Virus record (IMG/VR): IMGVR_UViG_3300042320_001544
Span: 1-57,705 of that record
Origin: a virus
Strand: one strand, 5' to 3'
Length of the DNA: 57,705 nucleotides
The position numbers and the translations under genes were made by a program. This document shows, one piece after another, positions 1 through 57,705 of this stretch (positions within the stretch are counted from its first letter, which is position 1; each line of letters starts with the position of its first letter). The notes under the pieces were generated by a model. It was given only the letters and a program-made list of their open reading frames with translations, was not told the DNA's origin and searched no databases.

Positions 1-127
1 GGCTACCTGCCTACGCCATTGACCATAACCTGTGAACTCGCGATCCAGCGGCGGCGGGCCTTCCTCAGCGGTGAGGCTTGTCCAGTCTTTATCAAGGACG
101 GTTTCCCCCATGATGGGTTGGGCTTCG
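1..127. repeat. Terminal direct repeat, left copy
   Basis: These 127 bases are identical to 57579-57705. The length equals a common maximum assembly k-mer, and the giant reading frame stays intact when the copies are merged. It is best read as a circular-contig overlap rather than a biological terminal repeat. Confidence 0.95.
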
Positions 128-9100: not shown

Positions 9101-9768
9101 TTTTTCGCAAGGTTGTATTTCTCGCGCGCTTGTTTTGTCTGACTTGCAAACTGGGTGTCGGCGTCGGCGACCACTCGCTTGCTCGCACCCACGCCGACCC
9201 GTCCCACTTTGATCGCGCGGGTCATTTCGTCTTGCTCCGCTTTGGCACTGGCCTCAGCGGTGGTCTTGGCTGTCTTCTCAGCGGCTTTTTCTTCTTTGGC
9301 CTTGGCGGCGGCTTGGGCTTTCGGATCTTCGCCCAGGGTGCGCTCACCCACGCCGGTGATTTTTTGCACCAGTTTGCCGTTCTTGCTCGTGACGGGCGCA
9401 TCGTTCCACGCATTACGCAAGCCCGAGGGTGCTAAGGGGTCGATCTTGTAGGGCGTCCCGTCTTTTGGATCTCGGTAAAGGCTGGGACCGGTCTTAATGA
9501 CTCGATCTCCCCCACTGGCCGGCGTGATCGGGATCACCTGTCCCTGTGCGTTGGTGAAAAATTTCACCGGTTGACCGCCGGCGACCTCGGGGTTCTTCTC
9601 CGGCTTGTCCCCTTTGCGGGTGCTTTCTTTGGCTTTTGCAGTTTGGCGCTTTTCCTCGTAGGCGTCTTTCCGCTCGCGGCTTTCGCGCTTTTCTTTGTAG
9701 GCGTTGGCTCGCTCACGAGCCTCGATGGCGGCTTGACGAAAACGGGAGGGTTTGGCGGGATCACTCAT
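1..9768 (-). CDS. Giant polyvalent protein, N-terminal part (residues 1-3256 of about 7,619)
   Basis: The frame opens at the ATG at 9768-9766 (MSDPAKPSRFRQA) and has no stop down to base 1. On the circular genome it continues at 57578 and ends at 44487. In order I see: a charged N-terminus; a coiled coil around residues 200-300; long helical segments; Ala/Gln-rich and Pro-rich linkers; a hydrophobic stretch near 980-1010; a zincin motif HEVIH at 2032-2036; further Lys/Ala-rich linker; a TIGR02594/CHAP-like amidase domain with Cys2822, His2879 and Asn2895; and an inorganic-pyrophosphatase-like domain near 3060-3180. This architecture fits the phage 'polyvalent protein' class, thought to be packaged and ejected with the genome, or the internal virion proteins of podoviruses. 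The start codon overlaps the stop of the preceding 48-aa gene (ATGA), suggesting coupled translation. Function as a whole is inferred. Confidence 0.9.
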   Translation of the reverse strand, partial: MSDPAKPSRFRQAAIEARERANAYKEKRESRERKDAYEEKRQTAKAKESTRKGDKPEKNPEVAGGQPVKFFTNAQGQVIPITPASGGDRVIKTGPSLYRDPKDGTPYKIDPLAPSGLRNAWNDAPVTSKNGKLVQKITGVGERTLGEDPKAQAAAKAKEEKAAEKTAKTTAEASAKAEQDEMTRAIKVGRVGVGASKRVVADADTQFASQTKQAREKYNLAKNDLDYDKQQIQRLDKALDEMTDVEQLPVFEAQKKEIEATLAAKEKRAAELDAEAHRAALREEEWRSQGRSAANQAIGAEEDRLKLMTNTGRREAIPQPVEPKPGNEGFRPISDGGAPLLMPGMKLMPNGSTALDALAEADSLMPNLQKVRIDRADQAERDSSLFPIPAALPARDLAGQMARQTAREVGKADLFAPEGFEITKDEVKANGQTVARVHRDDDGIPALEMKRGAPSPSLAAGNPYDGVPEYADVAPEFTAKLKGSGDDKAIADEWRARRWSPEMVSDVITRWQSSNDAERGEILVEMQPGMNEQIAKWMADPSQPMPRLNTRALWQSGQISAQEGRQLERIFYGEAPGPGEPRQAWNAFIKGDSLEAKAIRAEESLGGNLRKYNAAIDAAASKFIAEYHGRNASRIDFDPGKFAAFADTLAKDTKGYYGRIVDTLDSAAQSGVGSSLGAIYSLAIRAPATVVSLIGQAAGGLNVDDAAELGGVSYSWDEIDLIHGQTGESAKGMLNFIRDRATLDVTALWSGVEGKKLTKSLDELTKLAGDEQLTPDQRVRLRADIQKTALALTGTDPDAADYFDIDNPESPAAQALNAYQATRNPVYKDALRHALTSTPRARYLEEAAAAYASANGTLTDTENFGRLQMGFVGAQVAPVQEQAVEALSAGAQAVASKALMGAKTATQKAIASGKALTWANRATLKAEQLGDWFSTVGMVKGSTLRNTAVQGLKTAGVSFVSEGMEGAITSMGTGATVGDVLDGFVQEGLGALGMGPVMATVGMGADAVAKGAAYAKDNAAVRGFVANWNKDNPTDPMTAADWKQARAYLPPTTKATAEEVKTALETIAQSKAVVAQIAKSPASPAALAQVQAATQKAQAAVQVLTAATQKQQAAVKEAKNIMQEVNGIADPALREFANAAVRAVRGMPLTEAEAEALERAVAGVEPGPVAPPPVRVDAKGQPLKDAPVEPMPGIPLAKRQADGTYVITEAGLAALNEAMPRTGAMIFPPDEQSQTVPSPTSAPSSAPSGDADLLNDQERTRYTELLDKRAKGVATPSELQELRPLEARNNREVNDSVNENLTPEPAVGVGQTMSDPQQVAPAETQQPVEPVEPVEPTPSPAKGVGQTMSDPQQAETLSDENIVAEPVRSIYDRTTPGQERDQAIANRRAAAVRIAATLKRGDKVIEDGGEEFTIEGVLPNGKAFVEGYGEPIDIAAILVHQEVKDVNGNKVQIKPASIIRKREKPAETPAPQWFMVPITITSKTGGVRTMNIPVQASTPEQAAEMAMKKPQVRAMLKGGATATVGDIGQPAVNQQPATPTSKAPTPAQPAPEPMEPTAPPETEAEVPEQAARAREQIQPFARMLRELATAFGYKIVDTGLPFGFTDRYGKFHSFGTQIIDKAFPGSEVGQWIDKVQNSGMAEVIEANMSAPWFHRVWFGHDPLASVGAVIDKFGVGVLPEYAGQLLKDSLTKSGIPLPGVQWLVHAGVVSDKAATEWMSLNIGEALSSGLALVGTYRLYKRAKNGQEIATGWAAVGILFKMVGGVLSANPVLILSGIADAVIVVAAKKGTLKAGFQKARELENTTPLNRRDSDGSQPTAEPGAGRTAETATGGDAEAGPATDPAPNAPVPASGGRDQQSRAGGSRPTTQTTGTQRAKPTPANNPEPEITPNEQPDTPEPTPRNNAGSPSQSGQPAPETVPPASGGRVTPPLTRKLWDTAVEAALAQFAGRPNATARAQTALAVLRRSLSARKGAFDDIELVEGLPGSGILTEGMDPGADGRYTRVVLKVDLSSWVAQNLRMEGDVIAQIVSHEVIHAMQLREFSVDEMRDFWGSLPADLQSDAYQSYFAAAIDDGRMEEEPAEWSDEIAVTMGFEAQRMLFEDRLFGQKITEAAQADPGLKQKLVDMFKRLINRLRNLTATDPALKAVIDWHTARAVEALQRLGVQVPGHRNPSSAVGREMKNTGQRIAALREYTRRQDPNVPKWYAITDNGVVLSADANVFKAPWEARRAMAEEARRFGQWLAWDAGIVGSASIPDPLNEFPASIPYMERIWLPADVQEMAESLGWGYDTEPNPDENWFRDDGAVVAFVPPVAPPDQRTPQVRTPLPVATLVEGPVQGPLQDTLIELPARARTLEGMRDAVRARMDELEAMDPDDLTERQQDVYNRALPRFEALLAKIEARLMPSWERTAAQADAMAPPAETPQAQKVKKVKAKAREKAGLPAESPPPAAAPDSSVVFDAIKSAYPFKGTQTAAEERRFLTKVKAALKPLGIAGWKIDSAVDTLKRRRAQSNSGRLYYVEPTGLHAELRANGDIARPSEVAPAPTSPASAPTATAAPTAAAPEPTFSAELRAAFAAQFADLIDLGGFENEVSALQALPDNADMAAIQASAPQSVANAVAVAASQSRPEFMQWLERTLPHLVRFAAKIWKNAATLLVGLATALMPVGSSPASLASIDPATVAATVLQARPATFGTMAPWVTGVELPESKIDTVSQEMPAVMVPAFDGESSLNLNRPEIDVTQISFKGTREFQFRQLSTRLKGPDQYVNAPKSLAKWLLGRGDSAPTTALAALLGEHESNSPKVAAMLRSMGVVQSADTFPWCAASVSFALNRTGSPTRVLSARQFLSVGKPTQNPRFGDVVVMWNNNPATGGKTGWGGHVGLYLDETDTHIAVLNGNVNDEVAVTLFSKERVLGYRRVAAPAAAKKTLALNAPEAVASEVFGRRRLPPAKLAGFVELAAKMDAEGVNTPAMLATFLDTMMPNGAARPFSQALWNAIGVVNQEAVEAAGRVDWEQVYNSPTSTALVSALAADAEREQAAQVNTVLTQEAVRAAASVVNTEPTEAQKKAGNYQKGHLRLHGLDISIENPAGSERSGTDRDGKAWSVTLPHHYGYLKRTTGKDGDNVDVFIGPKPESQTVFVVDQVKQGNGHFDEHKIMLGFETLDEARAGYESSFTPGWKVGPVFETSLDDLKAWLAGGDFTKKASEQFEPVQMVDEAQPIMGETVLDKDWTSLTAEEGPPPLDREFTGYGQWRRQVA
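225..590 (-). other. Inorganic-pyrophosphatase-like domain within the giant protein
   Basis: Around residues 3060-3180 I read KKAGNYQKGH, GLDISIENPAGS, HHYGYLKRTTGKDGD, VDVFIGP and DEHKIMLGF. These match, from memory, the small InPase-type domain that recurs in phage and conjugative-element polyvalent proteins. The Asp/Glu/His/Lys-rich core suggests metal-dependent phosphate chemistry, but activity is not shown. It sits next to the amidase-like domain. Confidence 0.75.
1040..1330 (-). other. CHAP/NlpC-P60-like (TIGR02594-type) cell-wall hydrolase domain in the giant protein
   Basis: The stretch contains TFPWCAASV, then FGDVVVMW, GWGGHVGLYLDE and VLNGNVNDEV, ending in LGYRRV. The order Cys2822, His2879, Asn2895 matches the catalytic triad of the TIGR02594 branch of papain-like amidases. 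In a virion-associated protein such a domain would be expected to open peptidoglycan during DNA entry. A separate CHAP-like lysin is encoded at 36580-37101. Confidence 0.8.
3580..3720 (-). other. First zincin-type metallopeptidase motif in the giant protein
   Basis: Residues 2032-2036 read HEVIH, within VIAQIVSHEVIHAMQ, and are preceded by a beta-strand-like segment (TRVVLKVDLSSW). This is the HExxH signature of gluzincin/metzincin-type peptidases. A Glu-rich segment about 25 residues downstream could supply a third ligand. Self-processing or action on a host protein are both possible. Confidence 0.65.
5711..5848. repeat. 33-bp direct repeat pair and Glu-Pro-Val run inside the giant gene
   Basis: Bases 5711-5743 and 5816-5848 are near-identical, with three mismatches over 33 bp. 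In the protein they give two copies of GVGQTMSDPQQ. Between them a 9-bp unit repeats to give EPVEPVEP. This lies in a linker region and looks like local duplication. Confidence 0.8.
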
Positions 9769-25025: not shown

Positions 25026-26165
25026 ATGCCGATTGCCCAACGATTGCCCAACGGAAAACCTGCGCGTAGCCGGGAGGTGGTGACTTTTGAGGGGGTGAAT
25101 TACCCGCTGGTTTTGGAACTGGGGAAAGGGTGGCGGATGAGATCGCGCTCGATTCATCGGCGGGTTGATTATTTTACGGGCACCCTCAACAAGGTCGTGG
25201 CTCGCCGTTTGTGCCTCGCTCATCTGGCGGAATTGAAGACGGGGAAGCCGAGGCCGACCACTCGGACGCTGGAAGATGTCGTTGCGTGTTATCAGTCGAT
25301 GGCCAAGCGAGCCGGCATGGCAACCGAGAAACTGAACATCCGGAGTTTGCGTCAGGTGGTGCAAGCGGTCACCGGAAAAGATTTGCGGCATTATTACCTG
25401 CACGACCTCGGGCCGGACCTGTGGGCGAAGTATCAAGCCATCAAACAGGGGTTGCCTCGGGTGGATCTGTCGATTCGACGAGCGGCACACACGAGCATCA
25501 ACACTTCGGTGCGCGCGGCGGTGTCGCTGTTTATCCCCAAGCTGAGGCCGGGATATGAACGGGCGGGACTGACGATTCCAGCCGACACTTGCTCAGTGCA
25601 ATGGCTCCAGACTCTCAAGCGCCGGCCTGCGGGGTTTCAGGAGGCCGAGATGTTGGCAGCCTGGGCGGGGTTGACTGATCAACGGGCTTTGTGGTTTGCG
25701 GTGGCTCTAGCGCGGTTTGCGGGGCTGCGGAAAGAAGAGATCGGGGGATGCCGCGGCGGTTGGTTGGTGCGGCATGATGGGGTTTGGTGTTTGGAGATCC
25801 GCGACCGGGAAAGCGAAGGATGGTACACCAAGACCGGAGCGCACTATTTTGCGATGATCACTCACCCCGCGCTGATCGAGGCGTTGCAGGCGGTGCCACC
25901 GGACGATTTGGTCATTGGTGCCATTTCAAACCGCACAAATTGGCTGGATCGGGGGCCGCAACAATGGCTCAGGCCGTTCATGGGCTGCCGTGAGGAAATT
26001 TACAGGCCCCTGCACCGGCTCCGCGCGGCTTATCTGGCCAGCATCCAGCGTGAGGCTTTGATAGAGATGCAGCAGGCGGCTACGCGCAAGGCATCCGCTC
26101 AAGCTGGACACACCCAGACGACCACCACCATGCGCCATTACCTTCCTGCCACCATTTCCGCCTGA
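25026..26165 (+). CDS. int: Tyrosine recombinase (phage integrase)
   Basis: 379 aa. The catalytic set is visible: Arg in ARFAGLRKEEIGG, a beta-strand Lys candidate in WYTKTGAH, the HxxR box in PLHRLRAAYL, His in AQAGHTQTTTTM, and the nucleophile Tyr in MRHYLP near the end. An N-terminal arm-binding-like region and a SAM-like core-binding domain (TLEDVVACYQSMAKRAG ...) precede the catalytic part. It lies next to the tRNA-like attP and would integrate the phage at a tRNA-Lys gene. The start follows GAGTTTGACGT without a Shine-Dalgarno. Confidence 0.92.
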   Translation: MPIAQRLPNGKPARSREVVTFEGVNYPLVLELGKGWRMRSRSIHRRVDYFTGTLNKVVARRLCLAHLAELKTGKPRPTTRTLEDVVACYQSMAKRAGMATEKLNIRSLRQVVQAVTGKDLRHYYLHDLGPDLWAKYQAIKQGLPRVDLSIRRAAHTSINTSVRAAVSLFIPKLRPGYERAGLTIPADTCSVQWLQTLKRRPAGFQEAEMLAAWAGLTDQRALWFAVALARFAGLRKEEIGGCRGGWLVRHDGVWCLEIRDRESEGWYTKTGAHYFAMITHPALIEALQAVPPDDLVIGAISNRTNWLDRGPQQWLRPFMGCREEIYRPLHRLRAAYLASIQREALIEMQQAATRKASAQAGHTQTTTTMRHYLPATISA

Positions 26166-44486: not shown

Positions 44487-47400
44487 TCACGGTGCTTTTG
44501 GCAGCCGTTTAATCAACCGGGAAAATTCCGACATGGCCCCCTTGCCTTTACCTTCCATGGCTTCACCCATGGCCCCTTGCGGAACCGGCATGAAGTTGAG
44601 CCCAGTCAGATCACCCAGCAGCGATAGCGAGCCCGGCTTGCGTGCCACATCCTGCGGCTTGGGATAAAAGAGCCTTGGGAATTGTTTTGAGGTGCCGGAG
44701 GTGGCAAAGTTTCTTGTTTGCGTTCCTTGCCGGATGCTCTCGGTGCCCACTCCCATTTTTTGCAAGTCGGTCACGTCCTGCGGCCAGTTGGTCACGGTCG
44801 TCTTCTGAAGATCAAGGAACCCCCGTGGAATGCCCAGTTGTTCGAGCAGCGCCACTTGTTCGGGAACCGTCGCCGCTTGGATGAGCGCCGCGCGCCGGTT
44901 GATCTCAGCGATCATGGCGGCTTGCTCAGTCGCCGGCAATTCTTTGTCGGCCTTCACCTGCTGCTTCCGCGCCTTTGCCCATTCATCAACCTTAAACGGC
45001 GCATTGCCCACCGCCTGGTATTCGCCCTCAGCCGGCAGGTATTGGGACAAGCCCGGAATGTTGGACATGATTGCCTCCCTGATACCGGGGTCATACTTCA
45101 GTCCTGGAATGGGTCGCAAGCGCCGGCGGATTGGGTCCATAGCCTTGGTCACGGTGTCCCGAGCCCGGCTTGGGATGAGCGGAGCGGTGAGCAAATCAAA
45201 GAGCGCATCCGATGCCACCACCGGAAACGACTTGTCTCGGTTGTAGGGGCTGATCTTGTAAGTGACCGGCGTGAGATTCATCAATATTCCGGTCTGCATG
45301 TAGTCCTGTCCCATGTCGGCACTGTGCTCCCACATCTCCCTCCAGTCGCCATTGGCAGCCATGCCCAGCAGCACGGCCTCGCGCAGGTAGGGGTATTTGG
45401 TGAACTTCATGTAAAGGTCACCCACTCGACCAAGGTCATCGGTCAGGGTGCCATCGGTGCCGATGTCGATGCCGTATCGGCGCAGGTAATCGCGCACGAG
45501 ACGCACCACGCGGCTTGCGTTGATGCGGTCGCCAGTCCGAACGGCTCCAGCCAGATCGCGGCCTTCGTCGTCGTAATTCCGGCCAATCATCGGATCGTCA
45601 TCATCTCCACCTTCATCGCCGCTCATGGCGGCCCCGATCACGGTGAGGGCTCCCATGGTCATCAGGTTGGCCATCGAGCGCCGGCGCTGTTCGCCAGACG
45701 CGCCACGGCTCGTCGCCGTGATGAGCGCGCCGCCAGTGACGTTGTAAAGCTGACGCAGGTAGTTGTAACCCCACTTGATGAACGGGAACAGCGCCTTCTT
45801 GGTGATGCGGCCCAGTTGCGTTTGGCTTTGGTTCGGATCGATCCACGCCGGGACGTTGGCGTAGTCCATAAACCAGAACATGGCGCGGTCGTACGCGTCC
45901 TGAAAGGCTTTGGGCTGATCAGTGTGAGCGGTCTTGAGGTAGGTCAGCACCCAGTCGCGCCGGGCGCGGCCTTTGAGTTTTTGCTTGTCGGCCTCCAGAT
46001 CGGCGCGCGCGCGCAGGATGCGATAGATCATCGCCATTTTCGGGTTGGTGTCTACGTTCCCGTAGCCGATGGCTTTCAGGAAGGCGCTACCAGGGTCGAG
46101 GTTGCCAAGGTCAAACAATGCGCTGGCCTTCGGATCGATATCAAAAAGCGTCAGGCCGCCGCTATCGCTGACGATCTCCTCTGGCACCACTTCGGAAATG
46201 CGAGTCTTGGTCCGCGCAATGCGGTCGCGGGCCATGCCTCTGACCAAATGGCTAAACTCATAGGCTCCCAACTTGGCGGCCTGCCCTTGCCCCGTAACGG
46301 CGCTCAGAATGGCGTAGTTCAGGCTGTTCAGCGTCGCGATGTTGCGGAGAATTTCATTGCTGGCCCAGTTGGTCACATAGGTGCCAAAACTAACGAGCAC
46401 ACCCCGGTTGAACCGGTCCACAAACCACTCAATGGCACGCAAAAGGCTGTTCTCCGTGCGCTCGTGAGCCATGCCGGCCATCAGTTCCTTGTGCACGTTC
46501 CGATGAATTCCGTACTCCTTGTTCCAGAATCGCGCGGCATCACCCACCAGACCGCGGAGCAGTTCGGCCTGATCGGGGGTCAATGGCTCGCCTTTGGTCG
46601 GCTTGAGTTCCTCGACCAACCGGAGCCGGCGGATGTGAGCGAGCAGGATGGTCGTCAGGATTTCATCCACGTTGATCATGTCTGCCCGTTGAACTTGCGG
46701 TAAGCGGTCGAGCCTCACCGAGGCGCGATTGATCAACAGGCGGCGCGTTTCGAGGCGATTCTTTTCCCGGATCGACTCCATGGCGGTCACGCTGAACCCA
46801 TCAATCAGGTTGCGCACCTCACCGCGTTGAATCTTGGTGCCACTCCGCGTCGTGCGGGCGTCGCTCATGAAGGTGCGGAGCAGTTGCCCCATGAACTGCG
46901 CAAGGTTGCGTTGCACGGCGACATCCGGCGTCCAGCCCCCGAGGGTGGTGATCATGGGCAGCGGCGCGTCGCCAAACACATTGCGCAGCGTGTCCGGCCA
47001 TGTGTTGAAAGTCGCCAGCAGACTGCCCCGGTTAAACGTAGGCACCACGGTGCCACCAGGACCGACCTCGGTGACGTTTTCCATGCCGGGCATCAAGTAT
47101 TGATCGAGCACACCGACCGCCGTCGGGAACCGCTGGGCAAAGCCTTGGTAAATACCAGCCTGCACGTCGGCCGGCATCCACTCATACAACACAAAGCCAC
47201 CTCGATCACGAGCCAGCGCGCCCACGCTCAACACGGTGGGCACGCCCTCAATGTCTTGGGTGGTCATATCGCCGGCTGCTAGGTTTAGCGTTTGAGCTTC
47301 AAGCACGGTCAGGAAGCCAACTGGCCGTTCAAAGTCGGTGAAGATAAACGACCCATCGTCGGCGACGCCGGCCACCTCCAGTCGGCTGGCGACCGGGAGC

Positions 47401-50400
47401 ACCTGATCCAGAAACGCTTCCATGTCCTTTTTGCGGCTGCTCCAGTAACCCGGATCGCCGAACGCGGCTCGCACCTCGCGCCGCACCTTGTCCATCATCC
47501 CGTTGATCGCCGCCACGGCAAACCCTTCGTCAAACTGGTTCTTCTGAATCACCCGTTTGATGCCCGGCACAAAATAGTCGAGCTTGTCGAACCGGCCGTA
47601 AAAGTACTTAGCCAGCACGTCTGAGAAACCGCCATGCGTTGGCCGTTTTTTATTGTCTGTCTCTGCACCCTTGGCCATTTGCACCCGCCGGGCCTTGCCC
47701 TCAGCCGTGATGCCGTCCAGATGCTGAGCCGCCGGCTTGCTGGGCCGCACAGGCTGAGGGGCAAACAAAGCGAGCCCCTGTTGCTGGATGCTCTGACGCA
47801 TCGCCGGCGTGATGTCCACGCGCCAGATCCCAGTCTTGGCCGCAGAGTCTTTCCATGCTTGAAGAATAGCCGCGTCAGGTGCGTCAACGTCCCAAGTCGT
47901 TGCAAAATTTCTATCGGCCAAAACCTCCGTCAACGCTTGATTCACATTGTCAAATCCCAGCATGTCATTGCGACGAATGGCGTCTCTGGCAGCTTGTGTG
48001 GTTTTAGCCTTGCCTTCTGTCGGGATGACGGACTGCTCAACTCTTCCCCCCCACTGCTTCACAAACTTGCCAATTTCTTTGGGGAGGATGGTGTCATAGA
48101 AACCAACCATTCCTTTGCCGCCGACTTTAAGACCGTCGCCGGTGATGCTGCCGCTGCTTCCTCCGTCGATGATCTGCTGGGCGACATCTTTGCCAACGTA
48201 TTCTTCCAATTTCTCCTTGGGGATCGGGTCTGTCGAAGGGAACACATTCAAGTAATTGTCGTCTTTGACTCCCGCCAGAATGTAGGTTTTGCCCTCGTCA
48301 TCGGTGCGATACTGCAATTCATCGAGCTGCTGGCTCAGATCAAATCTCGCCACCTGCGTCTCGCCGGTGGTCCAACCGATCCACAGCTTGCCTTTCGCCA
48401 CGGCGTCTGCCAGAGCGCGCTTGAACATTTGCAGGGGCCAAGTGGCGCGGAAGGGAGCGTCAGGGACTGTCCCGATTTGCCGCACACCCCGCACAGCCCG
48501 CAGCGACTTTTCATTAGCGGCAATGGCTTCCTCCTTTGTCCGCCGGATGCCTTCAAAGCGTCCCTCATCATTTTGGAAAGCCCACTGCCCTGCATACTGT
48601 CCCGCCGTTTCCGGCATTTGGACGATTCTCGTCGAAATGATGGTTTCCGCTGATGGAGCGTCTTCGCTATACCCCTTCTTCCGCCCTTGCTGATGGCGGT
48701 CGCTTTGGATCTCTTCGATGAATGTCCCCGGCCGGCCTTGCGAATCAGTGCGCTCGTTCACCCGCATGTGCGCCACATAATTGGGCACGTTCGGAAAATG
48801 GCGGGACGTGAAGGCATTAGCAGCGTCCTTCGATTGGCCACCAATGATTGTGCCTCCGTTTTGCCGGATCAACTCGGCAACTTGCGAAGTGATGGGCTGA
48901 TCAAACTCAATGGCATACTCATTGTCTTCGCTCCTCCCGTAATCCATTTCGCTGAAGCCTTCGGCGTCCATGTCTGTCAGGAATGAATCGGCCGCTTCGT
49001 CATCAGCAAAGGTAACAGTGGTGCCCGAACCCTCGGTTTTAACGGGCATCGCCAGCACGACCTCGCGGTAGTTATGGCCCCCAGGCAGTTGGTATTGGGA
49101 GTATTTGCCGACATTCGGAGCAGCAACCCGTTTGTTGTCGATGTCCTTTTGCGCAGTCTCACGAGACGAATAGCGCCCCACCACATTGCCTGACCCATCC
49201 ACGATGACAGTGCCCATTCCATCCCCCTCGACACGCAGCGACTTGTAAAAGTCCGTTACCCCCATACTCACAACCTCTTCCAACCTCACTGCGCCATCGC
49301 TAGCGAGGTAGTCGAGCACAGCTTGCTTCTCGATCTTGTCCCCTTGGCTTTCAATCCAAGGCATGATTGCACTCCACTTGACCTCTTCGGCCTTGATGCC
49401 CGTCTGCGGGTTGGTGATGATGCCCTTGAGGGTCTTCGCATCGGCCCGCGCCGGCATCTTGGTCTTCACGACCTCCGCCAATTGCGAGTAAAACGCCGGC
49501 GTCACGGGCTGCACCCTTTCAGGCGCACCCAGTCGAACCCCCTCGCCTTTCCTCCCACCCTTCAGCCACTTGTCGAGGGCGTTGATCAACTCACTGGTGA
49601 AGTTGACGTACTCCTGAGTGCCCCAGCCCAATTGCTTGCCCAAGGGTCCAATCTGGCGGTCGGGGCGCTCGGCATCGTTCACATACTCATTGGCGTCCAC
49701 ATGATTTTGCAACCCCGCAAACGAGCGCACCCCCGCCGGGATCGTGCCGTTCGCCATGTCGGCCACAATCTCCGCCTTCGCCGTGGCCAGTCGATGCGCG
49801 AACACGCTTTCACGGGTGAGGGGTTTGATGGGCTCCGGTGCCCCGAGGGCTAGGTTGGGGACTATTCCTGTTTTGTCGATACCCACACCTACTTTTTCCA
49901 ATTCTCTGCGCAGCGAAGGTGTAACCACGTTGTCGGGTATTGTGACCCCTTCAGGGAGCGAGTCGCGGATTAATTGAGCCACCTCGGCGTCCGGGACGAT
50001 TCGTTTAATCTTGGCATAGCGAGACAAATCGACAATGCGGCCCTTGCCCCATGGGTGCGCGCCCACCGCACGTTTAGACAGGGGAGCTTGGTAGTCATCT
50101 TTTTTCGGAATTTCGATTTCGACGGTGACGTAGGGTTTCCGGTACGCAGCCGCAAACTGAGCGTTCAGCGGATTCTGCGAAGAATGAAAATACGGTGCGT
50201 AAATCGCATACACGTCATCGCCGTTTGGCCCCTTGAGTTTGAATTTGCCAGCGTTCCGGCCGGATTGAATAACCAAATCTGGGCGTTCTTCGGACTGCAT
50301 CCATTCACCCATTGGCTCGGCTGAACGAAGGTTGCCTTCCAAAAAAGTAGACATTGGAGGGTAGAGCTGGCCATCTATCAATGCCATGGTGCGATACCTC

Positions 50401-53400
50401 GTCACCGTGGGCTCGCTGTCCAGTTTTTCGATGGTTGCCTTGTCAAGGCGTCTTACCGCCTCGGGTGCCCCGAGGGCTATTCGTCCTCGTCCTCTTCCCC
50501 GTCCTCTTCCATCGTCGCGGGATTCATCCCGCGCGGGAGTTGGCCGAACCACGGCGGAAGCGTCCCTTCCTCGATCTCCTGCTCCAGATTCTCCAGCGTC
50601 TCGTCCAGATCCCAAATCAGCCCTTCCTCCTGAAGAAAGGCCCCTTGCGTCATAGCCTCGCCGAGGCTGTCCAGGAACAAATGCGCGGTCCCCCATGCCG
50701 TTTGCCCAGGCTGGCTTTCCCAAAGCCGTACCATCTGCAATTGCTCTTGCAAGGTCACGACCTTCGGGGTGGTCCTTGCTGATTGTAATGAGTCGGAAGA
50801 CGGCGGCTCTGGCTTCGTCGAGGGTGAGTTCATTCTTGAGGTAACTATCCCACACAGCCCGCACATTTGCAACATTGGCCTTCTTGGCTTTCCACGTTGC
50901 CGGGAACAATAATCGCACTGCTTCCCAAGTGATGCTCTGCACCTCGCGGGGCAACAAATTGAACGCCACGGCCGCCATCCGATACGCTTTGGCATTGGCT
51001 GCATACATGCCCTTGATGCCGGCGGCTCCATCATTTTTGACCCCTCCGCCTCCAAAATTCTGCGTCACTTCGAGGCTGGCCCCGCTGAGCGGCAGCCACA
51101 GCAACGCTGCAACGGCATGCGTGTCCATGGTCACATGACCGCTCAAATTGCGCGGATCGACGATGTTGTTGTAAAAACTACGCACCTTGTGCTGGTCACC
51201 CAGCGACGTGCTGATGACCTCATGCTCGTCGGTGAGGGTGCGGCCCTTCACCTTGACGGAACGGGTCATGACGGCAATGGCCTTCTCAATGGTGTTGTAA
51301 CCGCCCCAAGCGATCTTCAACTCAACGCCTTCTTCGTTGGTCATGTTGCCCACAAACTCACCGTGCGGCGTGACTTTCTGATAGCGAACGTCGTGGTACG
51401 TCTCCGAGAACATGCGAATGAATCGGCTCTGCAATTGGGGGTCTTTAAGGTCACTCAGCTTATTGCGAATGCCGTCTTTTTTGGATTTCCACTGAAGGCG
51501 ATCCAATTGCGCGCGCGCCCGGTTGACGTTTGCTTGGGCTTTAGTGTTGTCCCAATTGGTCCAAGTGACACTGCCATCGCTTTCGACAATCCGCTTGGCC
51601 CCGCCTTGATAGACAACCTCGCCATTTTTATCCAGCTTCTCTTTCTTGCCGCCAGTCTCCTTGTCTTTTTCCATGACCGGCTGCGGCTCTGCGGCTCGCA
51701 TGATGAATTGCTCGGTCATCTCAGCGGTCCATTCCGAGTTTTGGTGGTTCTTCCAAACGTCCATCATGCGTTCGGCGAGGCTCACGTTCATGAACCAGTC
51801 TTTCTGGGGCGAAAACACGGCGAGCACGGCGCTCGCTTGCTCGAGCGTGGCTTTGTATTTTTTACCGAAATGCTGGGCGATGATGTTGGCCCCGTCATAC
51901 CACAACGTGGCAAAGTCGCGGATGCCTTCAGGGAACATCTCAATCAGCGTTTTGAGGTTCGATTCAACGGCGGCGACGTAGGTGTTGTAAATTTTTTCGG
52001 CGTCCTCCAACGAGATGGCGCTTTCCTCTTTGAGCAAAGAGTCGATGGCCGCGTTGAGGTTCTTTTTCTCGACCTCAACCTTTTTCGTCAGGCCGGTGAT
52101 CTGCTTGTCCAGCCGTTTGATTTCGAGCGCCGTCGCCGTCTGGCCGTTTTTCTTGAGGAATGTGGCAAGGTGCTTTGCTTTTACCTGGGCTTTCTTCCAG
52201 CCCTTGGCTGTGGCGATTAGCCCGGTCGCTTCATTTTTGGCCTGCTTCAGCGCTTCGCGCGCCTCGGCGAGGGCCTCCATGGCGGAGTTGAGCGGCGCAT
52301 CAATGACCCTCATGCGTTCGGCCAAGCGCGGTTCGTCGCGACCCACCAACGGATAGCGGGTAAGCAGCAGCGCATTCTTCCGGTAAGCCAGCGGATTGTG
52401 CTTCCGTAACCGGTCGAGATCGACGTTGTGATCTCCGTCGGTGCCCTCGCCGGTCCGGCCTTTTGTCGCCGTGGCGTTGCTGGTGCCTACGGTGCGGCCG
52501 GCGACCGTTTCATCTTTGACGGCCTTCACAAAGTCAGACTGCTCAGCATCGATAGAAGGCGCGTCCTCAGCTAGCGAAACAGTGGATTTTTCAAAAGCAG
52601 GGGATTCTTCCATCAATCCGTTTTCACGGAACGAAAAATAATCGCTTGGAGAATAAGCCACCATGGCCTCTACCAATTCAATGCCGGCAGAGGACAGTCC
52701 TTCTTTCACTATGCGCGCCATGTGCCTGTTCTCCGGTGTTACGGCGGCAGAAGTTGGGCGTGACGGTTGATAAATATTTAAAGCGACAACATTGGATCCT
52801 TCTCTTGCAGCGCCTAAAAGCGCAAGAGTGGCAATGGCCGCAGGTGCGGTAGAAATAGGAATGCGCTCTACAGCACGCAACTGGAGCCGAGTATCAAGAA
52901 ACAGCAGGTGATGATGATCGGGGTCTGCTGTTCGCAGGGCGTTGAGGTAACCTGCTAATTCGTAAGGCTGGTTTAGCACGGGACGCTCTGACGAGGGCAC
53001 AGCCTCCCAGTTGGCCATGTTTCCTGTTTGAGGGACCGCTGGAGTTGGCAAAACAGGCAGCTTGGTAGTGCGGCTTGGCAAGCTCGGGATCGTTTCCGAT
53101 TTTTGATTGAGCATGCCAACCTCGCGGAACGAAAAGAATTGTTCGCCATTTGTAATAACATGATCAATAAACGGCACGTTTAACATTTCCGCCATTTCCA
53201 CCATTTTGCGGGTCATGCGTCTGTCAGCCTCGGACGGAGAAGTCTCGCCACTGGGGTGGTTATGAGCAATCAAAAACCCTTCAATTTGCATCGCAGGGTT
53301 AGCCATGCGTGCGGCCTCAAGAATGCCGGCAAGCCGGCCAATGCTCAAGATCGACTCGTTGACACTGCCAACATGCACAATTTGCGAGTGAATAACCTGC

Positions 53401-56400
53401 GAGCCATCGCCTAGCACGGCTATTTTAACACTCTCAAAGTGCGGGGTGCGCACGGCGAGGTTAAAGGCGGCAAAGTCTGCCGAAGTCTTTAGAATCGCCC
53501 CCCGAATGTTAAACCCTGGAATTTCCTGTGAAACAAAGTCATGCAGCAGCGCAGAGATTGTCTTGCCTTTAGCAAAGGCACCAGCGATGGCGGCGGTGTC
53601 AAGGGAAGTTAACCCTCTAAAGGACCGTCCAGCCTCGTCTCGGAGGGCGTCCACGCGCTCTTGGAGTCCCCGAGAAATTCCACCGGCAGTGGGTAATGGG
53701 TAGGCTTTACCACGGGCGGCGGTTGCGGAACGGATTGCGCGTTTGGCCGCGGGTTGTTTGCTGGCAGGGATGTTAACATTGTCGGCGTCAAGGTAGCCTT
53801 GAATGGCTGATTCTGCAAGGCTCACGCTGGCAGAAAGCTGATCCTTGTCAGAGTTTTTAATCTGCTCCGGCGCATACAGAACCACTTTTTTACCGTCCTT
53901 GCGCGTCTTGAGCGTTGAGAACACGTCATCAAACGCTTGGGCCACGGGCTGAATCTCGTTTTCGAGCAGGTAAGGATACCGGCCCGCGTCGCGTACAAAA
54001 TCCTCGACGGGCACCACGTTGGCCAGGTAATCGTTTTGATACCCGTCCACCTGCATTTTATGGATGACGTAGTTTTCGAACGCGCGAGCCGCGCGCTCAA
54101 TGGTGCTGCCCCAGTAATCGCTTTTGCCTTTGTCATTGCGCCGGGCGCGCTGGGTCATGGGCGAGGCATCCAGCGCCTTCACCAAGGCCGCAAACGATTC
54201 CTCGACCTCGGGGCGCACGCCCTCCTGTCGTTTCCAATCCTCGGGAGTGAAGTAACTGGGGATACCTTCGTTGATCTCATTCCAGCGTTTGACGCTCATG
54301 GATCCTCCCGTTTTGGTGTTCACATATCGAGTCTCAGGCTCGTTCGTGATGTAGACACCGGCATTGTCGCGAATGCTGAGTCCGCGCGCGCGGCCAAAAT
54401 AATGATCCAGCGCATGGAAAAACTCGTGAGCCAGCGTGCCTGCTCCTCGGGTCTTGGTGAGGTTAATGACGATGGTGCCTGGCTCGTAATGGGCCGAGGC
54501 CCAACCGTGCCCTCGGCTTCCGAAGCCCATTCCCAATTGGCCACCAAGGGACAACGCTTGAGTCGGCACCTTGAGGATGCCGGCCAGATCATGGAAGGCA
54601 TCGAACGCTTCGTTGATCATGCCTTGGCGTTCCTTGGCGTTCTTGCCTTGGCTCACCCAGTTTCCAAACTCCACGCCTCGGAAACCAAACGCGGTTTGGA
54701 AGTCCTCGGGGGTCACGTCTTTGCCTTGGCGGTAGTCTTGGGCGCGCCGCGGACGGTTCTCGGCGGTGCGCAAGTCGGTTTCTTTGACGTTGTCGCGGTC
54801 CTTTACTTGCTCCCACGCAGCGACCAGATCGGCGTAGTTGGTTTTGCGATATTCAAAGGCGGCGTCCGGCTTTTGGTCGGTGAACGTCTTCAGTGCACGC
54901 CGGAACGGATCTCCCTTTTTGGTGAGTTTAAAATTGCCGGGCGTGCCGTAGACCACAAATTCCATCTTGGCCACGGGTTTACCTGCGCTTAGCTTGGCAA
55001 TGACGGCGGCCGTCAGTTCTTCAAGGTTTTTGGCCGTGACACTGCGCCCATCCACGTTGGCGTCAGCCCACGGGCTTGGCACCTTGGCACCATTTTCAAA
55101 GCGATAAGCGTCCGGGTAATTCCGCACCGCTCCCACGCGCCCCCACTGCGCGCGGTCAATGCGTTCCAGCATCCTAATTTTGTCCACCAAGGGTCCAAAC
55201 ACGCTGCTGGTTTGGCGCATTTTGTTGAACAAGGCATCTAGCCCGAGGGTGGTGGCATCTTGCATCAGCCCCTTGATCAAGCGGATCTTTGAAACCCACG
55301 CATTGAGCTTGTAACCGCGCTGCGGCTTGGTCGGGATCGAATCGCGCAGGGTCGTGGCCAGTGCCGCAAATCGCGTATCCTCTAAGCTGTCGATCTCCGA
55401 CTTGGGCCAGATTTCGGACAAAGTTTTGCCCGCAATGTCGGAGTCGGTCAGGTCCGCATTGATGGTCGGCACCTTATCCTTGCGGGCACCTCCCAGCTTT
55501 TCACCAAAGTCTGTCAATCCGCCGGCTGCGGCAGAGCCCGCCACCTTGGCGCGAGCCTTGGCTTTGGCCTGCTCCACGTTGGAAACGGGCGCGGGTGGGG
55601 TTGCAATGAATCCCTTTGCTCTTTCCAGTAATAAAATCTGATCGGTCAGGTTGCCCGCAGGGTCCACGGTGCCACCAAAGGATTGCACGCCGCCTAGTTT
55701 ACTGGACGTGTATTGAGTGCGCTCGGCAGTCAATCGGGCAATTTCCCGATCAATCGACTCAAGGCTTGGGTATTCGGCTGCCAGTTTTTTGGCCTTGGCG
55801 TCTCGCTCTGCCTCGGATTGAGCGTTGGTTTCATCCTTGGTCGCCAATCGCGCTTTGACGTTTTCAATGCGGGTTTTGAGATATGTTACATCGCCCGATT
55901 GCTCCGCTTTCGGGATGGCATCGCGCAACGTAGAATAAGGCAAGCCCTCGCCCAGTCGGCGCTTAACCTCGGGTAGCAATGCTTTGGCTTCTGCAATGAC
56001 TGCCGTGGGCTCCCCTTCCGCCGGCTCAGGGGCTGCTTCTGGCTGGACCGGAGCCTCCGCTTGTTTCTTTGCCCAGGCGGCGTCCAGCTTTTTAGTACTT
56101 GGCAACGTCTGGTGCACGCGCTCCCTCTCACTCGGCACGGGTTGCCCGTCTTTGGTCACTCGGATGACGGTCACCCCCCACGATCCCAATGGGCCGCCTT
56201 CAGACCGGAAGGAAATCACCCGGTCAGTTCCGCCATAACCTTCCACCAACGCACCCGGCTGAAAATAGGCTTCCAGCTTGTCCAGCAGCGTTGGCTTTTT
56301 GACCTTCTTGGCGCGGGCCTTGGCCTTGGCCTTTTCAACCGGGGAAACCGGCGGCGCGGCAGGTGCCGGCTCTTGGCTCAGCCCACGGTCTGGATCTTGA

Positions 56401-57705
56401 GATGATCGGCTCGGGCTTTGACTTGTTTCGCTGCTCGTTGCGCGTTGGCCAAGCGGGTTTGCATACGCTCCCGTCCGCTGGCCTGATTGGGCGACAGCAA
56501 AGATTTTGGCAGCGGATTCTTTCGAGCGGGTAACATCGGTTTCGGCTTTGTTGGCGAGCTGCTTGAACGACCCGCCAAGCAGATTTTGCACGGCCGGCAG
56601 CACCTCGTCAATGGGTTTGTCCAGATGGGCGGCGATCTTTTGGGCCACCCTTTTGATGTCCTGGTCAGACGTTAGGCGCTGTTCGGTCGAGGTCAGGGCC
56701 GCGACCCCTGCGACATCGATGCCGGCGGCTTGCAGCATTCTGACAAACGCAATCCAGCTTTCCCCTGTGTTGTGGACATCCTCGGTGACAAAAACCGGCC
56801 GCCCTGTGTTTTTGATTGCCTCGATAATTTCCGTGACCGGGGTGAAATAAACAGGATCGTTTTCCTTGGCCAAAAACGTGCGTTTGTTTTTTGCCTCCAT
56901 TTGCGCGCCTGCGACCCCCGCCGGCCTAACCTCCACCATCTGTCCGTAGTCCTGCGCGATTCGCAAAGCCAATTCATGAGGTAACACATTGTTCCCACTG
57001 GTCGAAGGCACTGGCACCAACAGTGCATTGGCGGGAATATTGGCAAACGCGGCTGGCTTGTAGAAACGGGAAACAATTTGGATCGCTCCCTCCACCCCAT
57101 ACCCCGCTTCACTCCATTGCGTTTTGTCATGCCGCAATTCTTGAACTTGGCTCGATGCAAAAAGAGGCCGGTCAAATTCACTTGTCGTTGTTTGCGCTTT
57201 GGCGCGGGCCTTGGCCTTGGCTTGCTCAACAGGGGAAAGCGGCTCTTGATAAACAATCGAAATGCCTTTCCTCACATAGTTTGGCGGCAGCGGTGCACCC
57301 TTTGCATTGGCGTCGTAGGCTTCAACGGAAACGGGTTGTTTCTCAAACATGCCACCCATGAACCATTGGGCGTATTCATTCGTGAGCGCTTTCGCCTTCG
57401 TTCTAACCAAAAGATCCTTTCTCAATCCTGTGATCAGTTGAGCAGCGACATTTTGGGCAATGATGTGGTGTTGCCACGATTCAATGCCTGGCTCTCCGTT
57501 TTCCTTGGAGATTTCATCGGCCAACTCCAGCGCCAAGGCTTCAATCTCGATAGGGGTTCCCTGGGGTAATACCTTTTGGGCTACCTGCCTACGCCATTGA
57601 CCATAACCTGTGAACTCGCGATCCAGCGGCGGCGGGCCTTCCTCAGCGGTGAGGCTTGTCCAGTCTTTATCAAGGACGGTTTCCCCCATGATGGGTTGGG
57701 CTTCG
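44487..57705 (-). CDS. Giant polyvalent protein, C-terminal part (to residue 7619)
   Basis: This continues the frame entering from base 1. The Met at 57689 is internal (residue 3220; the same codon lies at 109-111), not the start. Domains in order: type I phosphoribosyltransferase-like (about 3424-3564); LPD1-like segment with zincin motif HEFFH (4307-4311); an intact RadC/JAB domain with HNHPSG (4694-4699) and a degenerate second copy; coiled coil; a DUF7178-like domain with FSPQKDW; an Arg/Gly-rich linker; a YRTM...LYPPM domain; a widespread phage polyvalent module (FYSQL ... EEIQSD ... WTTGE ... GFYD); and a long helical C-terminal region resembling large polyvalent-associated domains such as LPD38. 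The domains are separated by repeated Lys/Ala-rich and LGAPE peptides. Whole-protein role is inferred: ejected multi-tool protein and perhaps the internal core. The 69-aa membrane gene follows 4 nt after the stop. Confidence 0.92.
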   Translation of the reverse strand, partial: EAQPIMGETVLDKDWTSLTAEEGPPPLDREFTGYGQWRRQVAQKVLPQGTPIEIEALALELADEISKENGEPGIESWQHHIIAQNVAAQLITGLRKDLLVRTKAKALTNEYAQWFMGGMFEKQPVSVEAYDANAKGAPLPPNYVRKGISIVYQEPLSPVEQAKAKARAKAQTTTSEFDRPLFASSQVQELRHDKTQWSEAGYGVEGAIQIVSRFYKPAAFANIPANALLVPVPSTSGNNVLPHELALRIAQDYGQMVEVRPAGVAGAQMEAKNKRTFLAKENDPVYFTPVTEIIEAIKNTGRPVFVTEDVHNTGESWIAFVRMLQAAGIDVAGVAALTSTEQRLTSDQDIKRVAQKIAAHLDKPIDEVLPAVQNLLGGSFKQLANKAETDVTRSKESAAKIFAVAQSGQRTGAYANPLGQRATSSETSQSPSRSSQDPDRGLSQEPAPAAPPVSPVEKAKAKARAKKVKKPTLLDKLEAYFQPGALVEGYGGTDRVISFRSEGGPLGSWGVTVIRVTKDGQPVPSERERVHQTLPSTKKLDAAWAKKQAEAPVQPEAAPEPAEGEPTAVIAEAKALLPEVKRRLGEGLPYSTLRDAIPKAEQSGDVTYLKTRIENVKARLATKDETNAQSEAERDAKAKKLAAEYPSLESIDREIARLTAERTQYTSSKLGGVQSFGGTVDPAGNLTDQILLLERAKGFIATPPAPVSNVEQAKAKARAKVAGSAAAGGLTDFGEKLGGARKDKVPTINADLTDSDIAGKTLSEIWPKSEIDSLEDTRFAALATTLRDSIPTKPQRGYKLNAWVSKIRLIKGLMQDATTLGLDALFNKMRQTSSVFGPLVDKIRMLERIDRAQWGRVGAVRNYPDAYRFENGAKVPSPWADANVDGRSVTAKNLEELTAAVIAKLSAGKPVAKMEFVVYGTPGNFKLTKKGDPFRRALKTFTDQKPDAAFEYRKTNYADLVAAWEQVKDRDNVKETDLRTAENRPRRAQDYRQGKDVTPEDFQTAFGFRGVEFGNWVSQGKNAKERQGMINEAFDAFHDLAGILKVPTQALSLGGQLGMGFGSRGHGWASAHYEPGTIVINLTKTRGAGTLAHEFFHALDHYFGRARGLSIRDNAGVYITNEPETRYVNTKTGGSMSVKRWNEINEGIPSYFTPEDWKRQEGVRPEVEESFAALVKALDASPMTQRARRNDKGKSDYWGSTIERAARAFENYVIHKMQVDGYQNDYLANVVPVEDFVRDAGRYPYLLENEIQPVAQAFDDVFSTLKTRKDGKKVVLYAPEQIKNSDKDQLSASVSLAESAIQGYLDADNVNIPASKQPAAKRAIRSATAARGKAYPLPTAGGISRGLQERVDALRDEAGRSFRGLTSLDTAAIAGAFAKGKTISALLHDFVSQEIPGFNIRGAILKTSADFAAFNLAVRTPHFESVKIAVLGDGSQVIHSQIVHVGSVNESILSIGRLAGILEAARMANPAMQIEGFLIAHNHPSGETSPSEADRRMTRKMVEMAEMLNVPFIDHVITNGEQFFSFREVGMLNQKSETIPSLPSRTTKLPVLPTPAVPQTGNMANWEAVPSSERPVLNQPYELAGYLNALRTADPDHHHLLFLDTRLQLRAVERIPISTAPAAIATLALLGAAREGSNVVALNIYQPSRPTSAAVTPENRHMARIVKEGLSSAGIELVEAMVAYSPSDYFSFRENGLMEESPAFEKSTVSLAEDAPSIDAEQSDFVKAVKDETVAGRTVGTSNATATKGRTGEGTDGDHNVDLDRLRKHNPLAYRKNALLLTRYPLVGRDEPRLAERMRVIDAPLNSAMEALAEAREALKQAKNEATGLIATAKGWKKAQVKAKHLATFLKKNGQTATALEIKRLDKQITGLTKKVEVEKKNLNAAIDSLLKEESAISLEDAEKIYNTYVAAVESNLKTLIEMFPEGIRDFATLWYDGANIIAQHFGKKYKATLEQASAVLAVFSPQKDWFMNVSLAERMMDVWKNHQNSEWTAEMTEQFIMRAAEPQPVMEKDKETGGKKEKLDKNGEVVYQGGAKRIVESDGSVTWTNWDNTKAQANVNRARAQLDRLQWKSKKDGIRNKLSDLKDPQLQSRFIRMFSETYHDVRYQKVTPHGEFVGNMTNEEGVELKIAWGGYNTIEKAIAVMTRSVKVKGRTLTDEHEVISTSLGDQHKVRSFYNNIVDPRNLSGHVTMDTHAVAALLWLPLSGASLEVTQNFGGGGVKNDGAAGIKGMYAANAKAYRMAAVAFNLLPREVQSITWEAVRLLFPATWKAKKANVANVRAVWDSYLKNELTLDEARAAVFRLITISKDHPEGRDLARAIADGTALGKPAWANGMGDRAFVPGQPRRGYDARGLSSGGRADLGSGRDAGESGAGDRGRDASAVVRPTPARDESRDDGRGRGRGRGRIALGAPEAVRRLDKATIEKLDSEPTVTRYRTMALIDGQLYPPMSTFLEGNLRSAEPMGEWMQSEERPDLVIQSGRNAGKFKLKGPNGDDVYAIYAPYFHSSQNPLNAQFAAAYRKPYVTVEIEIPKKDDYQAPLSKRAVGAHPWGKGRIVDLSRYAKIKRIVPDAEVAQLIRDSLPEGVTIPDNVVTPSLRRELEKVGVGIDKTGIVPNLALGAPEPIKPLTRESVFAHRLATAKAEIVADMANGTIPAGVRSFAGLQNHVDANEYVNDAERPDRQIGPLGKQLGWGTQEYVNFTSELINALDKWLKGGRKGEGVRLGAPERVQPVTPAFYSQLAEVVKTKMPARADAKTLKGIITNPQTGIKAEEVKWSAIMPWIESQGDKIEKQAVLDYLASDGAVRLEEVVSMGVTDFYKSLRVEGDGMGTVIVDGSGNVVGRYSSRETAQKDIDNKRVAAPNVGKYSQYQLPGGHNYREVVLAMPVKTEGSGTTVTFADDEAADSFLTDMDAEGFSEMDYGRSEDNEYAIEFDQPITSQVAELIRQNGGTIIGGQSKDAANAFTSRHFPNVPNYVAHMRVNERTDSQGRPGTFIEEIQSDRHQQGRKKGYSEDAPSAETIISTRIVQMPETAGQYAGQWAFQNDEGRFEGIRRTKEEAIAANEKSLRAVRGVRQIGTVPDAPFRATWPLQMFKRALADAVAKGKLWIGWTTGETQVARFDLSQQLDELQYRTDDEGKTYILAGVKDDNYLNVFPSTDPIPKEKLEEYVGKDVAQQIIDGGSSGSITGDGLKVGGKGMVGFYDTILPKEIGKFVKQWGGRVEQSVIPTEGKAKTTQAARDAIRRNDMLGFDNVNQALTEVLADRNFATTWDVDAPDAAILQAWKDSAAKTGIWRVDITPAMRQSIQQQGLALFAPQPVRPSKPAAQHLDGITAEGKARRVQMAKGAETDNKKRPTHGGFSDVLAKYFYGRFDKLDYFVPGIKRVIQKNQFDEGFAVAAINGMMDKVRREVRAAFGDPGYWSSRKKDMEAFLDQVLPVASRLEVAGVADDGSFIFTDFERPVGFLTVLEAQTLNLAAGDMTTQDIEGVPTVLSVGALARDRGGFVLYEWMPADVQAGIYQGFAQRFPTAVGVLDQYLMPGMENVTEVGPGGTVVPTFNRGSLLATFNTWPDTLRNVFGDAPLPMITTLGGWTPDVAVQRNLAQFMGQLLRTFMSDARTTRSGTKIQRGEVRNLIDGFSVTAMESIREKNRLETRRLLINRASVRLDRLPQVQRADMINVDEILTTILLAHIRRLRLVEELKPTKGEPLTPDQAELLRGLVGDAARFWNKEYGIHRNVHKELMAGMAHERTENSLLRAIEWFVDRFNRGVLVSFGTYVTNWASNEILRNIATLNSLNYAILSAVTGQGQAAKLGAYEFSHLVRGMARDRIARTKTRISEVVPEEIVSDSGGLTLFDIDPKASALFDLGNLDPGSAFLKAIGYGNVDTNPKMAMIYRILRARADLEADKQKLKGRARRDWVLTYLKTAHTDQPKAFQDAYDRAMFWFMDYANVPAWIDPNQSQTQLGRITKKALFPFIKWGYNYLRQLYNVTGGALITATSRGASGEQRRRSMANLMTMGALTVIGAAMSGDEGGDDDDPMIGRNYDDEGRDLAGAVRTGDRINASRVVRLVRDYLRRYGIDIGTDGTLTDDLGRVGDLYMKFTKYPYLREAVLLGMAANGDWREMWEHSADMGQDYMQTGILMNLTPVTYKISPYNRDKSFPVVASDALFDLLTAPLIPSRARDTVTKAMDPIRRRLRPIPGLKYDPGIREAIMSNIPGLSQYLPAEGEYQAVGNAPFKVDEWAKARKQQVKADKELPATEQAAMIAEINRRAALIQAATVPEQVALLEQLGIPRGFLDLQKTTVTNWPQDVTDLQKMGVGTESIRQGTQTRNFATSGTSKQFPRLFYPKPQDVARKPGSLSLLGDLTGLNFMPVPQGAMGEAMEGKGKGAMSEFSRLIKRLPKAP
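48027..49502 (-). other. Widespread polyvalent module (FYSQL ... EEIQSD ... WTTGE ... GFYD) in the giant protein
   Basis: Landmarks in order: FYSQLAEVVKTKMPARA, EEVKWSAIMPWI, YQLPGGHNYREVVL, VAHMRVNERTD, FIEEIQSDRHQQGRKKGY, APFRATWPLQMFKRAL, IGWTTGETQVARFDLS and GGKGMVGFYDTILP. This combination is a hallmark of phage polyvalent proteins and of unknown biochemical function. An extra acidic segment of about 80 residues is inserted between the LPGG and AHMRVNER blocks. Confidence 0.7.
49890..50408 (-). other. YRTM/LYPPM domain of unknown function in the giant protein
   Basis: The segment begins VTRYRTMALIDGQLYPPM, then APYFHSSQNPLNAQF and YVTVEIEIP, ending GKGRIVDLSRYAKIKRIVP. I recognise the pattern from other phage polyvalent proteins but know no assigned activity. 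A very Arg/Gly-rich linker (alternating GR) precedes it. Confidence 0.5.
50790..52022 (-). other. DUF7178-like domain in the giant protein
   Basis: I see LWYDGANIIAQ, LEQASAVLAVFSPQKDW, VTMDTHAVAALL and EVQSITWEAVRLLFP. From memory these match a phage family often encoded as a stand-alone protein of unknown function. The two halves are separated by an insertion rich in Lys and Glu (around the codons at 51480-51700). Confidence 0.6.
52614..52967 (-). other. Second, degenerate RadC/JAB copy
   Basis: This segment aligns by eye with the preceding JAB domain: VVALNIYQPSRP takes the place of the HNHPSG region, then TPENRHMARIVKEGL, and SDYFSFRENGL corresponds to EQFFSFREVGM. Both metal-binding histidines are replaced, so it is probably a non-catalytic duplicate. 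Confidence 0.75.
53115..53477 (-). other. RadC/JAB (MPN) domain, catalytically intact copy
   Basis: The domain carries the JAMM-type signature HNHPSG followed by SPSEAD (residues 4694-4699 onward), after the RadC-like lead-in of about 65 residues. Metal ligands (His, His, Asp) are all present. RadC-type JAB domains are frequent in mobile-element proteins; deubiquitinase-like isopeptidase or nuclease functions have been proposed. Confidence 0.85.
54393..54695 (-). other. LPD1-like region plus second zincin motif in the giant protein
   Basis: FGFRGVEFGNWV begins the large polyvalent-associated domain 1 pattern. About 85 residues later LAHEFFHALDHYFG gives HExxH at residues 4307-4311, with an additional His at +6 (HALDH). 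This arrangement is common in polyvalent proteins and predicts a zinc peptidase. Confidence 0.8.
56655..57077 (-). other. Phosphoribosyltransferase-like domain in the giant protein
   Basis: About residues 3424-3564. LLVPVPSTSGNN resembles the substrate/PPi loop, and PVFVTEDVHNTGESW matches the type I PRTase PRPP-binding loop (hydrophobic strand, two acidic residues, then TG-E/T-S). PRTase-like domains are reported in polyvalent proteins, where nucleotide or RNA chemistry is suspected. It is flanked by two copies of the VE(Q/K)AKAKARAK linker. Confidence 0.7.
57579..57705. repeat. Terminal direct repeat, right copy
   Basis: Exact copy of bases 1-127. Removing it gives a 57,578-bp circle; any coordinate p in 1-127 equals p+57578 here. 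Confidence 0.95.

Follow-up and report, generated by a model that had tools for sequence, protein, structure and literature searches.

The giant gene and its domains

The window, a 57,705-nucleotide stretch spanning IMG/VR virus record IMGVR_UViG_3300042320_001544, carries a direct terminal repeat of 127 bp: comparison of its ends showed positions 1-127 to be identical to 57579-57705. The record is a complete circle, with a genome of 57,578 bases. Given this end repeat, the ORFs at the two edges are a single ORF of 7,619 aa, which the window boundary splits in two. The joined gene is open over 7,619 codons on the minus strand and occupies roughly 40% of the genome. Its two parts and main landmarks are as follows.

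1-9768, minus strand: 5' part of the polyvalent protein gene; ATG at 9768, resuming at 57578; InPase lies here
44487-57578, minus strand: 3' part of the polyvalent protein gene; stop at 44487; LPD5, LPD1, RadC and DUF7178 lie here
53868-55517, minus strand: LPD5-LPD1 block with HEFFH motif, from domain matches and homology to relatives
47763-49493, minus strand: FYS...TPxMR domain, anchor of the cross-phage test, from alignment (80 loci)
3652-3684, minus strand: HEVIH zincin-like motif, from sequence
54405-54437, minus strand: HEFFH zincin-like motif, from sequence

Domains recognised in the product were InPase (pyrophosphatase family), LPD5, LPD1, RadC and DUF7178. The product belongs to the phage polyvalent proteins: at least two unrelated domains, the five just named, share one ORF, and packaging genes (terminase large subunit and major head protein matches) are found on the same element. 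In polyvalent proteins, which occur in phages and conjugative elements, a single polypeptide unites enzyme domains that are unrelated to each other (Iyer et al. 2017, PMC5512222). The giant is like those described there in its LPD1, LPD5, RadC, InPase and zincin-like motifs, but unlike most of them it is far larger and has at least eight recognisable blocks. The original prediction had assigned two peptidase motifs to this protein, and these correspond to HEVIH and HEFFH.

Two further observations concern the window. Within low-complexity sequence of the giant, PA(V/K)GVGQTMSDPQ occurs twice, at 5713-5751 and 5818-5856, 35 residues apart. A 379-aa ORF at 25026-26165 lies on the plus strand, opposite to most genes; it had no PHROGs match and by eye looks like the C-terminus of a tyrosine recombinase.

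The giant carries two peptide families at domain borders

The peptide VE(Q/K)AKAKARAK, here called KAKARAK, had been predicted at three places, each behind a Pro/Ser-rich lead-in and between whole domains, with a relative near 2450-2490. All three copies were located on the minus strand, each preceded by such a lead-in and standing between domain blocks. The relative is a degenerate fourth copy and, since the edge ORFs are joined, sits in the same protein as the other three.

57198-57236, minus strand: KAKARAK copy 1, SPVEQAKAKARAK, protein 3371-3383; precedes a phosphoribosyltransferase-like region
56307-56345, minus strand: KAKARAK copy 2, SPVEKAKAKARAK, protein 3668-3680; sequence repeat
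55545-55583, minus strand: KAKARAK copy 3, SNVEQAKAKARAK, protein 3922-3934; directly before the LPD5-LPD1 block
2458-2490, minus strand: degenerate fourth copy, KKVKAKAREK, protein 2427-2437; same 7,619-aa protein

The region after copy 1 gave a weak UPRTase match (E 0.045). Right behind copy 3 the LPD5-LPD1 homology to relatives begins, and the copy itself is predicted by the structure model to be disordered (pLDDT about 30) with a short helix. Pair scores for the 13-mer among the three copies were 57, 52 and 50, whereas the top pair in 60 local shuffles reached 47.

Relatives lack the KAKARAK 13-mer, an outcome named beforehand as part of what would count against the prediction, and the exact back-translated pattern had no match in viral contigs. 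The looser pattern VExAKAKA was seen as single occurrences in unrelated viral proteins, helical or coiled. KAKARAK as a widely conserved processing site was rejected on these results.

An all-against-all search of the 7,619-aa protein revealed a second border peptide, (L/V/I)xL(G/F/Y/N)AP(E/Q), in which AP(E/Q) stands behind a hydrophobic strand. This APE tag is present in six to seven copies, the seventh being the weakest, mostly at domain ends; 0.11 would be expected from the rate in related proteins.

53865-53888, minus strand: APE tag VVLYAPEQ, end of the LPD5-LPD1 block; modelled as a strand, then disorder
50457-50480, minus strand: APE tag IALGAPEA, from the repeat search
49830-49853, minus strand: APE tag LALGAPEP, from the repeat search
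49515-49538, minus strand: APE tag VRLGAPER, immediately ahead of the FYS...TPxMR domain
47751-47774, minus strand: APE tag LALFAPQP, immediately behind the FYS...TPxMR domain
964-987, minus strand: APE tag LALNAPEA, N-terminal (upstream) of the InPase part
8512-8529, minus strand: possible APE tag DLFAPEG, near the N-terminus; weakest member

At the end of the LPD5-LPD1 block, where the giant has VVLYAPEQ, relatives read ALFSRS, VMFSRS or MLFAKTR. APE rather than KAKARAK is the junction tag with better support in the giant. Compared with most other tags, KAKARAK is longer, helical and without an aromatic residue.

Tags at the same borders in other phages

Loci with the FYS...TPxMR anchor domain, which in the giant lies between VRLGAPER and LALFAPQP, were fetched from viral (80) and cellular (55) sequences. 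At the same borders, relatives of the giant carry FSSAS, SFSIG, FDDP, SPAD(D/E), FAK(A/S/T)R, FMPE or FSR. The peptides before and after the anchor domain matched within a phage: SLFSSAS/ALFSSAS, SFSIG/SFSIG, LRFDDP/VMFDDP, TLYSPADDS/TLFSPADES, ALFSPRKQ/ALFSARKQ, LALPPAAQAV/LFMPPAGQAV and RFMPERP/QFMPERP.

This pairing was assessed by permutation in 30 non-redundant proteins, the large FMPE clade having been collapsed to one member. Eight of the tag pairs were known before the test was designed and the remaining pairs were new. The summed score of own pairings was 762, a value reached by none of 100,000 permutations (maximum 579). Own pairing ranked first in 13 of the 30 proteins and among the top three in 19. 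At a second domain-end anchor, QRFN...DIRF, own pairing scored 174 against a permutation maximum of 167 (11 phages). Where a third anchor, the DAEYMAAVE domain, is present, most proteins have their phage's own tag or one like it just ahead; L039 is an exception.

Tag copies also recur within single proteins: FSSAS five times, FDDP six, SFSIG five to six and APE seven, against 0.05-0.2 expected from other proteins. The patterns were picked from the founding pair, so the new evidence consists of copies beyond two only; these were found in L044, L062, L071, L009, L017, L021, L010, L060 and the window protein, and none in L039, L054 or L082. Tags occur about once per border and almost never at free termini. 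Two tag borders that were modelled fall at fold/disorder edges, the tag beginning where the fold stops; both models were modest (mean pLDDT 62 and 61), and only the fold/disorder edge was used from them.

L034 (6,895 aa) has six blocks in common with the giant, among them the last thousand residues at the C-terminus, and arranges them differently, which shows internal domain shuffling. The common blocks carry L034's own tag: LFAKTR at the LPD1 end, MFAKSRP at the RadC end and LFAKARP at the anchor-domain end, with LFAKARP, LFAKARK and TAKAKARM elsewhere. The giant reads APE at its LPD1 and anchor-domain ends, and at its RadC end no tag could be recognised. The likeness of LFAK(A/S/T)R to AKAKARAK is suggestive of a relationship between the two.

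Among named phages the anchor domain gave four matches, all distant. The cultured Shewanella phage vB_SbaS_Y11 has a 3,372-aa protein with FSR-type borders. A terminase search found no close kin of the window phage. Prophage tags were seen in several phyla, such as FM(R/Q/A)W in an Oscillospiraceae MAG and FAPRK in a Nitrospirales MAG, but the numbers per host do not suffice to tell host effects from phage effects. Dozens of other phages and prophages mark the same kinds of domain border, each with its own peptide, and the peptides look like a lineage-specific cut or docking code. KAKARAK is best seen as one instance of this wider pattern, which is apparently undescribed: the text of Iyer et al. 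2017 (PMC5512222) does not mention linkers, and no description of phage-specific junction tags was found in the literature searched, which left out most subscription journals and preprints.

The first 120 residues of the giants often contain a short phage-specific repeat of a separate kind (13 of 37 proteins, compared with 3 of 970 internal windows). Carriers include the window giant (from 9768 downward, protein 16-41), L016, L040, L042, where PPEESFDD occurs three times, L055, L064, L087, L109, L114 and L129. These N-terminal repeats are a candidate head-targeting signal.

Reading and origin of the tags

The proposal of a polyprotein in which the repeats act as sites of processing or as tags for docking held in part: other giants have their own tags at several borders, and these survived the permutation and codon tests, whereas the KAKARAK peptide is not conserved in relatives. 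A short peptide that is alike across unrelated borders of one protein and differs between phages suggests a common reader, and one partner would then read all copies within a given phage. With tags about once per border and at a fold/disorder edge, that partner would most likely be a protease, the most economical reader because cutting would free domains of unrelated activity, either during head maturation or after injection. Our leading but tentative reading, to which we give somewhat less than an even chance, is that the repeats are junction tags of the giant polyvalent protein and most likely processing sites for one protease. KAKARAK may have arisen more recently as a second tag, or may be a linker that was duplicated and acquired the role.

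Starting from P1 DdrB, Iyer et al. 2017 (PMC5512222) proposed that polyvalent proteins undergo autoproteolysis by their metallopeptidase domains. Eight tag-bearing proteins (L010, L017, L023, L062, L063, L064, L077 and L088) have no HExxH, so the reader is not simply a zincin of the same chain, and an in-cis HExxH peptidase was rejected as the general cutter. Autoprocessing would place a protease in cis wherever tags occur; on HExxH it does not stand there, and other peptidase types are possible. Among the 20 window ORFs, PHROGs recognised no prohead protease, and 11 of the 20 were without any match. A prohead protease cutting many head proteins would be expected to leave the same motif in other head proteins; this was not supported, the tags being confined to the giant and missing from neighbouring genes except for one match, in the terminase.

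Known systems offer partial parallels. In SPN3US, prohead protease gp245 cuts after A-X-E (PMC10052503); its substrates are injected head proteins with a short, sometimes repeated recognition motif, and APE fits A-X-E. Unlike in SPN3US, no such protease was recognised here, the tags are in one protein, and most tags of other phages are not A-X-E. In MARTX-type multi-effector toxins one protease domain cuts several disordered interdomain sites and frees the effector domains (PMC3153235). The giant had no cysteine protease domain match and its setting is phage to bacterium, so the analogy is one of working only. DdrB and DarA of phage P1 are packaged in the head, injected and proteolytically processed, as the giants might be, but the descriptions of them mention no tag that recurs at several borders. 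Against processing stands N4 virion RNA polymerase: it too is large, polyvalent and equipped with a peptidase domain, and it is packaged without being processed (PMC5512222).

Docking is the main rival to processing, though we consider it rather unlikely. Each domain's peptide would bind one phage-specific partner for packaging or threading, without cutting; the partner could be the head interior, the portal, the ejection channel or a different domain of the same giant. Docking accounts equally well for the matching tags within a phage, for their divergence from phage to phage and for their restriction to the giant, and the separate N-terminal repeats (13/37 versus 3/970) look as a docking signal would. 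However, tags that stand roughly once per border and are nearly missing from free termini resemble punctuation rather than docking by avidity.

Less probable still is that the repeats are inert linkers which recombination copies along with domain cassettes or from one cassette to another, so that they record shuffling and have no reader. Domain order is shuffled between phages, as this would have it, and the DNA of some repeats indicates common ancestry. KAKARAK copies 1-3 share 31-34 of 39 nucleotides inside the motif while their flanks are about random (the degenerate fourth copy shares 7-9 of 39 in the register compared, which is no DNA similarity). Identical residues use the same codon in 23 of 35 cases, compared with 13.1 expected, although the z of 3.5 is generous because the three pairwise comparisons are not independent; most remaining differences are synonymous. 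Together these point to old duplicates of one segment of about 40 bases in which the peptide was kept. L017 has linkers GKGMKEQGN and RPEPP(E/K)GGTT, four copies each, with the same codons at 45 of 48 and 53 of 65 positions, and such near-identical DNA suggests recent copying between domains, unlike the APE-type tags. For APE, 12 of 48 identical residues share a codon (15.1 expected), which is chance level, and for the pooled tags 59 of 133 do (48.5 expected, z 2.0), a slight excess at most. Codons this close to independent suggest that the tag peptide was kept over time and is not a recent copy. As the origin of all tags, recent DNA duplication was rejected for the APE type, accepted in part for KAKARAK and accepted fully for the L017 linkers. 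Inert linkers leave unexplained both the tags with randomised codons and a kept peptide and the sharp edges of the retained peptide inside random flanks.

It is improbable that KAKARAK is a basic helical spacer, touching packaged DNA or aiding solubility independently of the APE tags: it does read as Lys/Arg/Ala alternation behind an S-P-x-E helix cap, and unrelated viral proteins contain single stretches like VExAKAKA, but its three copies are almost the same, sit at successive borders and share a conserved non-basic lead-in, SPVEQ, which exceeds compositional demand, and local shuffles fail to reach their pair scores.

Other phages tag the same domains differently from the giant, each keeping its peptide while the codons drift. 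It is conceivable, at slightly lower confidence than the processing reading itself, that the giant polyvalent proteins of phages are genuine polyproteins whose junctions carry a phage-specific code: a short peptide at most borders would change in concert across all borders of a protein as the reader changes, and domains captured from other phages would be re-tagged. The giant tagged proteins are thought to be injected into bacteria, and since the first description of polyvalent proteins the question has stood whether they work as one piece or are cleaved into individual effectors. The tags predict, for each phage, the sites to examine and the exact residues to change. They also provide a sequence-only means of marking out domains whose function is unknown and of spotting recent acquisitions.
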